This document shows, in pieces, positions 8,885 to 41,877 of a stretch of 64,000 nucleotides of DNA. Within the stretch, counting starts at the first letter, position 1; every line of letters starts with the position of its first letter. Source of the stretch: Thermogutta terrifontis (GTDB lineage: Bacteria; Planctomycetota; Planctomycetia; Pirellulales; Thermoguttaceae); assembly GCF_002277955.1 (NCBI RefSeq), contig NZ_CP018477.1, positions 1,798,001 through 1,862,000 of the forward strand. Direction: 5' to 3'. The position numbers and the translations under genes were made by a program. Below the pieces are notes generated by a model that saw only the letters and a program-made list of their open reading frames with translations, did not search any database and was not told the DNA's origin.

Positions 8885-12586
<3,702 letters not shown>

Positions 12587-39905: not shown

Positions 39906-40817
39906 ATGTCAAATGCAACTGTTGATCTTGCTGTTGTGCCCGTAGCAGGACGGGGCACCCGGCTGCTCCCACTCACCAAGAGTCAGCCCAAAGAGATGTT
40001 GCCTGTCGGCCGCAAGCCGGTCGTGCAGTATGTGGTGGAGGAACTTGTTCGGTGTGGAATCAAACGGTTTTTGTTCATCACGGGGCCGGGCAAAACCGCT
40101 ATTGAAAACCACTTCGACCTTAACCCGGAACTGATCCAGATGCTCCGGGAAACCGGGAAGGAAGAACTCCTCAAGGAGTTGTCGTTCGAGCGGGCGGAGG
40201 TGGATTATTTCTACACCAGGCAAAGGCGACAACTGGGGTTGGGCCATGCCGTATTATGTTCCGCACCCATGGTCAAGGACCAGCCGTTTGTCGTGGCCCT
40301 CGGAGATTCGATCATAGGTCTCCAGGCCCAATCGGATGTGGTGCGGCGAATGATCACGCTTTTCGAGGCGGAATCGGCGGACGCGGTCATCGCGTTTGAA
40401 ACGGTCCCCCGCGAGGACGTGGTCCATTATGGAATTGCGCAGCCCGTGGGGAATGATTTGGAAAATGGAAAGGAATACTTTCGGCTGGCGGGGATTATCG
40501 AAAAGCCGACCCCGGAGGATGCACCAAGCTGTTTGGCGGTGGCGGCACGGTACGTCTTTCGACCAGCAATTTTCGACCATCTTCGCCGAACGCCCCCCGG
40601 CAAGGGTGAAGAAATCCAACTTACGGATGCCATCCAGCGAATGATTGAAGCGGGAGGGAAAGTTCTTGGCATTCGTCTCCCGCCGCAGGAACGGCGGTTC
40701 GACATCGGCAATTTCGATAGTTATTTCCGGGCGTTTTTGGAGTTCGCTTTGGCCGACGAGGAATGCGGACCAGGATTGCGACAATTCCTGAAACGATTAC
40801 TCGAAGGTCAAGAATAA
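39906..40817 (+). CDS. galU: UTP-glucose-1-phosphate uridylyltransferase
   Basis: GalU makes UDP-glucose from UTP and glucose-1-phosphate. The 303 residues include the nucleotide-binding start [25 protein letters not shown] (a GxGTRxLPxTK-type signature), [45 protein letters not shown] (metal-binding Asp), [13 protein letters not shown] and [18 protein letters not shown] 39906 is preceded by GGAGAG. The gene is followed at 19 bp by a GHMP kinase, suggesting cotranscription and a joint role in making a UDP-sugar. [10 protein letters not shown] has Val where Ala-Gly is commoner, a minor change. Confidence 0.95.
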
Positions 40818-40836
40818 ACCGGGGCGGGGCAGGGGA

Positions 40837-41877
40837 GTGAGTGACTTTACGGGGACGGTGTTGGAGATGATCATTATCAAACGTCGCGCTTACGCTCGGG
40901 CGGGTCTGCTGGGAAATCCCTCAGACGGTTATTACGGAAAGACCATCTCCGTGATTGTGCGGAATTTTTACGCCGAGGCCGTGCTATATGAGTGGGACCA
41001 GGTGGAGCTGGTTCTCAGCCAGGAAGACCGCAGTCGGTTTGACAGTGTCTATGATCTGGCGCGAGACGTCCGCCTCCACGGGTACTATGGTGGGATCCGC
41101 CTGGTGAAGGCCACGATCAAGAAGTTCGTCGAGTACTGCCAGGCACAAGGGATCAAACTCCATGAAAGGAATTTCTCCATCCGTTACCACAGCACGATAC
41201 CGCGACAGGTGGGGCTTGCGGGATCCAGCGCCATCATCGTGGCCGTGCTGAGGTGTTTGATGGATTTCTACGGTGTGCAGATCCCGCAGCGGGTGCAACC
41301 ATCGCTGGCCCTCGCCGTGGAAACCGAGGAGCTCGGCATTGCTGGGGGACTACAGGACCGCGTCATTCAGGTTTATGAAGGGCTCGTATTCATGGATTTC
41401 AGCCGTGACAAAATGGAGAACATTCACGGCTACACCTGCGGCGTCTACGAACCGCTGGATCTCGACTACCTCCCGCCGCTCTATCTGGCCTACAACACGG
41501 CCATCGCCGAGCCCACGGAGGTCATTCATAACGATCTTCGCGGTCGTTACCTCCGCGGAGAGCCTGCCGTGGTGGAGGCCATGCAGAAATTCGCGGACCT
41601 CGCACAGCAGGGACGCCAGGCCCTGCTGGAAAGGGATTGGCTGACCTTCGGAAAGCTGATGGATGCCAATTTCGATCTCCGTCGTTCGATATTGCGCTTG
41701 GCACCCGAGCACATCGAGATGGTCGAACGCGCTCGCAGTGTAGGAGTTCCGGCCAAATTTGCCGGTTCAGGTGGCGCCATTGTCGGACTCTGTCCTGATG
41801 ATGCCACGTTCCAGAAACTCAAGACGGAGATGGCAGCCATCCACTGCGAGGTCATCCGACCACACGTCAGACCGTGA
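40837..41877 (+). CDS. GHMP-family sugar kinase, glucuronokinase-like
   Basis: The frame allows GTG 40837 (346 residues) or ATG 40867 (336). The latter begins [24 protein letters not shown], which closely resembles the start of plant glucuronokinases from my knowledge of that family. GHMP hallmarks follow: [18 protein letters not shown] (ATP-binding P-x(3)-GLGSS-type loop), [19 protein letters not shown] and the C-terminal [16 protein letters not shown]. Such kinases phosphorylate a sugar at C1; glucuronate, galactose-like or related sugars are possible. With galU immediately upstream, the pair could convert a free sugar acid to a sugar-1-phosphate and then to a UDP-sugar. Substrate is inference. 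Confidence 0.8.

Follow-up and report, generated by a model that had tools for sequence, protein, structure and literature searches.

A GalU-like nucleotidyltransferase and a glucuronokinase-like GHMP kinase form a recurrent gene pair in Thermogutta terrifontis and other bacteria: a candidate route for glucuronate salvage

The genome of Thermogutta terrifontis R1 is one contig of 4,810,751 bp, of which we analysed a stretch of 64,000 nucleotides (bases 1798001-1862000, hereafter the window). Two neighbouring genes on its forward strand are the subject of this study. The upstream gene (39906..40817, + strand) encodes a galU-like nucleotidyltransferase of 303 amino acids (P0002), a proposed UDP-glucuronate pyrophosphorylase, and the downstream gene (40867..41877, + strand) a glucuronokinase-like GHMP kinase of 336 amino acids (P0001). 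A first-pass annotation had read positions 39906-41877 as galU followed by a GHMP kinase; indeed, both open reading frames lie there on the + strand and their Pfam domains score above the cut-offs. The kinase probably starts at the ATG at 40867 rather than at the GTG at 40837 of the longest reading frame, because the family alignment begins at this ATG. The gap between the galU stop and the kinase start is 49 bp with the ATG and 19 bp with the GTG. At related loci, for example L006 and L057, the ends of the two genes overlap or almost abut, which is what one operon would show. The closest locus, in a Thermogutta MAG, matches at 98% over 203 kinase residues, and among the relatives examined this MAG alone shares the upstream serA gene and the downstream genes. 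Besides the kinase and GalU, no gene family was present in more than five of 33 compared stretches, where small clusters look incidental.

The kinase carries two Pfam domains and no other, GHMP_kinases_N (50.9 bits, cut-off 22.3) and GHMP_kinases_C (33.1 bits, cut-off 21), together with all three GHMP motifs. Its features, all on the + strand, are a sugar-site motif at residues 11-24 (14 residues, 40897..40938), the GHMP ATP loop, already noticed in the first-pass annotation, at residues 112-124 (13 residues, 41200..41238), the catalytic-Asp segment GLQDRV at residues 161-166, with D164 (41347..41364), and the third GHMP motif, GSGG, at residues 300-303 (41764..41775). Two other GHMP proteins of the genome exceed the Pfam cut-off, and each also passes the cut-off of its own family: a galactokinase (377.5 bits versus 226.65) and IspE (206.8 versus 138.7).

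Several named identities for the kinase were tried and rejected. It scored 57.4 bits against the curated cut-off of 600 for D-glycero-D-manno-heptose 7-phosphate kinase HddA (NF049969), 46.2 bits against 163.05 for mevalonate kinase (TIGR00549), and 28.6 bits against 443 for galactokinase (PRK03817), having GNPSD where galactokinases have GEHTD; for shikimate kinase, the score was also far below the curated cut-off. Placement in a known bacterial family had been raised as one possible objection to a glucuronokinase-like assignment, and the kinase falls outside both the curated heptose-phosphate and the curated mevalonate families. The nearest solved structures by sequence are heptose kinases, at no more than 53 bits (66.5 bits with a profile), and no relative found in the PDB carries the name glucuronokinase. 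A model of the kinase, with a mean pLDDT of 86.4 and low confidence at residues 19-21 and 70-74, best matched the galactose-bound galactokinase 1pie (Z 33.2, 2.2 A, 312 aligned residues), tied, within one Z unit, with the heptokinase WcbL 4usk (Z 32.6, 2.5 A, 313 aligned residues). The kinase thus shares its fold and the three GHMP motifs with galactokinase, HddA/WcbL and fucokinase (FKP), but differs from them by other sugar-site residues and by a low identity, 16-22% when aligned by structure. In FKP, too, an anomeric kinase is coupled to a pyrophosphorylase.

For the comparison with plants we used a sequence of Arabidopsis GlcAK1 (At3g01640) that is an approximate query and not a database record; the kinase was 45% identical to this approximate sequence over 326 amino acids (271 bits). 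When run against all rows of the family, the approximate sequence scored 273.0 bits with the window kinase, 285.6, 283.0 and 280.9 bits with those of L115, L019 and L128, and 27.5 bits with hddA, and gave no match to galK, ispE or thrB. Because the kinases of L115, L019 and L128 match it slightly better than the window kinase does, the approximate plant sequence is no copy of the window. The plant match, made with an approximate sequence, may be regarded as a strong lead to the identity of the kinase.

A tree was built from 61 rows, with a single entry for genes met at more than one locus; the partial or split kinases of L011, L028 and L083 were left out and one internal stop was taken out of the extended L016 row. 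An insertion suspected in the kinase of genome G367 turned out to be merely a run of N. Groups A and B and the approximate plant row fell together on one side of a branch (97/88), away from galK, hddA, ispE and thrB, with the plant row sitting among the bacterial relatives inside the A/B clade. Group D came next to A/B and the plant row (50 rows jointly, 98/99), and group C further out. The plant row was placed between L027 and the other A/B rows (97/84 and 98/88 at the flanking forks); however, its branch is long and its exact position is unsure, because the tree program flagged long branches, the plant row included. The phylogeny with the plant enzyme that had been called for, made with one approximate sequence on a long branch, tentatively puts the kinase on the plant side and apart from galK, hddA, ispE and thrB.

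The motif noted earlier at the start of the kinase is present, and its pattern, an R before G-N-P-[S/T]-D, is conserved in 41/41 group A/B rows, 8/8 of group D, 6/6 of group C and the approximate plant row; the Glu-His of the galactokinase GEHTD is Asn-Pro in every family row. The stretch aligned with kinase residues 11-24 presumably contacts the sugar in galactokinase. D164, which we take from galactokinase to be the catalytic base, is invariant (41/41 A/B, 8/8 D and 6/6 C rows, and both galactokinases). R165, beside it, and R272 are conserved across groups A/B and D and in the plant row, but not in group C or galactokinase; these two arginines are candidates for holding a carboxylate. With L027 set aside because its start is truncated, the other 40 of 41 A/B rows share 42 identical residues with the approximate plant row.

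The partner P0002 contains an NTP_transferase domain (PF00483, 98.3 bits, cut-off 21.2) and otherwise only PF12804; the Pfam scan found in it no PF01704 domain (UDP-sugar pyrophosphorylase/UDPGP family), to which we take the UDP-sugar pyrophosphorylase (USP) of plants to belong. Its nucleotide-binding signature spans residues 15-31 (17 residues, 39948..39998, + strand), within which G15, G17, T18, R19, K29, E30 and M31 are invariant in alignment A2. The catalytic, nucleotide-binding and metal-binding motifs are intact, the roles of single nucleotide- and metal-binding residues being assigned on our own assumption. From its fold and motifs, P0002 is predicted to work like a sugar-1-phosphate uridylyltransferase: its model (mean pLDDT 75.5) is closer to solved GalU (Z 31.1) than to RmlA (Z 24.7). 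P0002 shares fold, length and catalytic motifs with bacterial GalU, but it scores 278.6 bits with the NCBIfam galU model TIGR01099, under the equivalog cut-off of 326.8, it co-occurs with the kinase, and it has GNF.SY, found in nearly the same form in most group A partners, where E. coli GalU has GNKLGY. None of the differences seen from E. coli GalU can be attributed to the choice of sugar. The GalU-type partners in Rufibacter and at L061 exceed the GalU cut-off (352.5 and 345.7 versus 326.8). In two other genomes (G303 and G300; loci L089 and L090) the kinase-adjacent GalU has AARGIR or AAQGIR for AGRGTR, which recalls E. coli GalF (AGLGMH); with a degenerate motif akin to that of GalF, these proteins may be weak or regulatory.

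Within the genome, P0002 is the sole full-length GalU-type match (the next scores 49.3 bits). A PF01704 protein was found in 21/22 genomes tested. We considered whether the PF01704 enzyme of T. terrifontis could be a housekeeping UDP-glucose pyrophosphorylase and rejected this: the genome's only PF01704 protein, encoded away from the locus, looks like a UDP-GlcNAc pyrophosphorylase. The genome also encodes a UDP-glucose 6-dehydrogenase-like protein (TIGR03026, 460.6 bits versus 189.8; TuaD, 495.1 versus 700, thus below the cut-off) whose closest named PDB relatives are UDP-glucose dehydrogenases, and a second dehydrogenase that resembles the UDP-ManNAc type.

The adjacency of galU and kinase, first seen at this single locus, is repeated in many genomes, with either gene first. 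At 10 of the 11 loci L001-L011, galU immediately precedes the kinase on its strand; the remaining one, L001, cannot be judged, its stretch starting 50 bp before the kinase. In a class sample of 118 genomes (GalU E <= 1e-30, kinase E <= 1e-20), GalU and the kinase were each found in 12/118 genomes, and in the same 12, an agreement that holds among the 32 of the 118 genomes listed for both. The pair lay within 1.5 kb in 10/12, and on different contigs with clear flanks in the other two (G343 and G389). The naive chance of two identical 12-genome sets is about 1e-16, a figure that ignores kinship and linkage and so shows only that the agreement is not random; linkage accounts for most of the co-occurrence of kinase and GalU.

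Across a phylum sample, the kinase was matched (E <= 1e-20) in 30/294 genomes, 16 with members of groups A/B, eight of D and six of C. Among the 16 A/B genomes, a GalU-type gene adjoins the kinase in nine (six upstream, three downstream) and lies elsewhere in four, in one of them as a partial gene; it was not found in three (G010, G284 and G041). In the phylum of a Balneolaceae MAG, kinase matches (E <= 1e-40) occurred in 10/296 genomes and a GalU-type gene in the flanks of 9/10 of these kinases (five upstream, four downstream), the flanks of L130 being the one set without it. The reversed order, kinase and then GalU-type gene, was seen on a plasmid of Rufibacter tibetensis (Bacteroidota) and also at L021, L026, L027, L128, L129, L131 and L132, which include other planctomycetes. 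Because both gene orders occur and the pair persists when unlinked, we argue that the two genes function jointly. The Rufibacter plasmid (L074, NZ_CP012644.1) was typed as mobilizable, and such plasmids may help explain the patchy spread of the pair. A search of viral contigs with the bacterial alignment and the approximate plant sequence found no relative of the kinase; phage records held one match, at 22.9% identity, in an unannotated record.

In plants, the glucuronate route is fed from myo-inositol oxygenase. This enzyme gave no match in 28 genomes, but control genomes were also silent, hence its absence does not follow. According to passages of PMC3659416, plants convert glucuronate to glucuronate-1-phosphate and then to UDP-glucuronate, the second step being catalysed by USP. 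The kinase family and the proposed two-step chemistry would be the same in T. terrifontis as in the plant pair of GlcAK1 and USP, whereas the second enzyme differs, a GalU-like NTP_transferase taking the place of USP. A close parallel in arrangement comes from zebrafish (DrGKUP), as far as the published description (passages of PMC3938481) allows the two to be likened: a bacterial-type nucleotidyltransferase is tied to a glucuronokinase, the nucleotidyltransferase first, but in one fused protein rather than two genes. The C-terminal half of the fish protein is a glucuronokinase that was active on glucuronate but on none of eight further sugars tried; its N-terminal half, a domain of about 260 amino acids that resembles bacterial nucleotidyltransferases, had very low measured activity, whereas the T. 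terrifontis partner has 303 amino acids and is of GalU type. We found no characterised bacterial glucuronokinase in the open-licence PMC literature, which fits the earlier statement that no bacterial pathway of this type had been characterised; yet passages of PMC8571626 list glucuronokinase among the functions predicted for algal-associated bacterial communities, so that bacterial genes have already been given this label. The Arabidopsis enzyme is referred to in passages of PMC6888640 and PMC6604206.

The reading we favour, and hold to be somewhat better than an even guess, is that the two genes form a glucuronate salvage pair in which the GalU-like enzyme acts on glucuronate-1-phosphate; that the kinase is a glucuronokinase we consider likely. 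What we observed are the two genes, the families they belong to, their intact catalytic motifs and their close association in many genomes; what each enzyme acts on, where glucuronate comes from and what the UDP-sugar is used for are inferred. The kinase would phosphorylate D-glucuronate at C1 with ATP to give glucuronate-1-phosphate (EC 2.7.1.43 type), and the GalU-like enzyme would convert this with UTP into UDP-glucuronate and pyrophosphate; in essence, this would be the route of plants and fish with a different kind of pyrophosphorylase. Glucuronate could come from the degradation of polysaccharides that bear it, such as xanthan. A metabolic reconstruction of T. terrifontis indeed predicts glucuronate release from xanthan followed by breakdown via the uronate-isomerase route; its passages on glucuronate give it this catabolic fate and describe no salvage, and glucuronokinase, GalU and pyrophosphorylase are absent as terms from its main text (PMC5673643). 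The cell therefore probably has a supply of glucuronate, for which salvage and catabolism would compete. Since the UDP-glucose 6-dehydrogenase of the genome would otherwise make UDP-glucuronate from UDP-glucose, the pair would add a recycling route to this one, like that of plants. The first-pass annotation had proposed a candidate route by which glucuronate, or a sugar like it, is salvaged to a UDP-sugar; at the level of sequence this proposal is supported, the curated families not being matched and the link to GalU being recurrent.

The main rival keeps the glucuronokinase and changes the role of its partner: GalU would make ordinary UDP-glucose for UDP-glucose dehydrogenase and another pyrophosphorylase would take glucuronate-1-phosphate, both genes feeding one pool of UDP-glucuronate from two sides. 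P0002 is the only full-length GalU-type gene of the genome and has intact catalytic motifs, its model is nearest to solved UDP-glucose pyrophosphorylases, nothing found in its sequence points to a preference for glucuronate-1-phosphate, the Rufibacter and L061 partners pass the NCBI GalU cut-off, and a UDP-glucose dehydrogenase-like gene is present. Against this, 106 of the 118 class genomes have no GalU match at E <= 1e-30, which implies that it is not the general housekeeping enzyme in this class, and GalU was found only together with the kinase. We judge this rival to be rather unlikely. That the kinase acts on galacturonate, another uronate or another acidic derivative, with GalU making the matching UDP-sugar, we judge unlikely as well: the sequence does not reveal the substrate, groups C and D show divergence in the wider family, and release of galacturonate is predicted for T. 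terrifontis as well (passages of PMC5673643), but the fish enzyme does not accept galacturonate and the galacturonokinase of plants has a very different sequence (passages of PMC3938481).

A neutral sugar such as galactose, arabinose or a heptose, which with GalU would give an Isselbacher-type route to a UDP-sugar, seems improbable. The structural model matches galactokinase and heptokinase equally, and the published galT candidate of the species is doubtful (passages of PMC5673643); the genome has, however, its separate galactokinase, the Glu-His of GEHTD is replaced in all family rows, and the heptose-kinase score is far below its cut-off. Finally, the two genes could be chance or purely positional neighbours with unrelated functions. 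The unit comprises only two genes, in surroundings shared with the Thermogutta MAG alone, but the pairing recurs in both orders and the genes co-occur when unlinked; the counts refute chance, and we give this explanation hardly any credence.

If the glucuronate salvage pair is confirmed, recycling of glucuronate to UDP-glucuronate would reach beyond plants and lower animals, and a function would be found for the Rufibacter kinase, named merely 'GHMP kinase' by NCBI, and for a lineage of GalU. As the chemistry is known from fish and plants, the novelty would be the bacterial two-gene form, which would here supply a heat-stable two-enzyme route from glucuronate to UDP-glucuronate and a functional partner enzyme against which the almost inactive pyrophosphorylase domain of fish could be compared. 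A confirmed pair would also suggest that the eukaryotic glucuronokinase is of bacterial origin. We also entertain, tentatively and as somewhat doubtful, a broader scenario: the bacterial two-gene cassette would be widespread but patchy, with at least two independent arrangements, the plant and the fused fish/animal glucuronokinases would stem from bacterial stock, and GalU would be a dedicated UDP-glucuronate pyrophosphorylase, a specificity not described in the literature we found.

Other arrangements were met in the wider family. At L070 (8495-10263), a group D kinase is directly followed by a short nucleotidyltransferase (9520-10263) from a different family, with AglF as its best NCBIfam match (81.9 bits versus 400); its 247 amino acids are about the length of the N-terminal domain of the fish fusion. 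At L069 (1139-6643), a group D kinase has as neighbours a SIS-like sugar isomerase (recognised by eye), a TIM barrel resembling xylose isomerase and an oxidoreductase of the Gfo/Idh/MocA type, a neighbourhood that looks more like sugar catabolism. In six planctomycete genomes (L037-L042; for example L072:3131-5055), a variant of GalU that shares 50-53% identity with P0002, and is incomplete in L039 and L040, immediately precedes a distant GHMP kinase with 28-32% identity, in which GNPTD is present and R165 and R272 are absent. This sister cassette possibly follows the same logic for another sugar.
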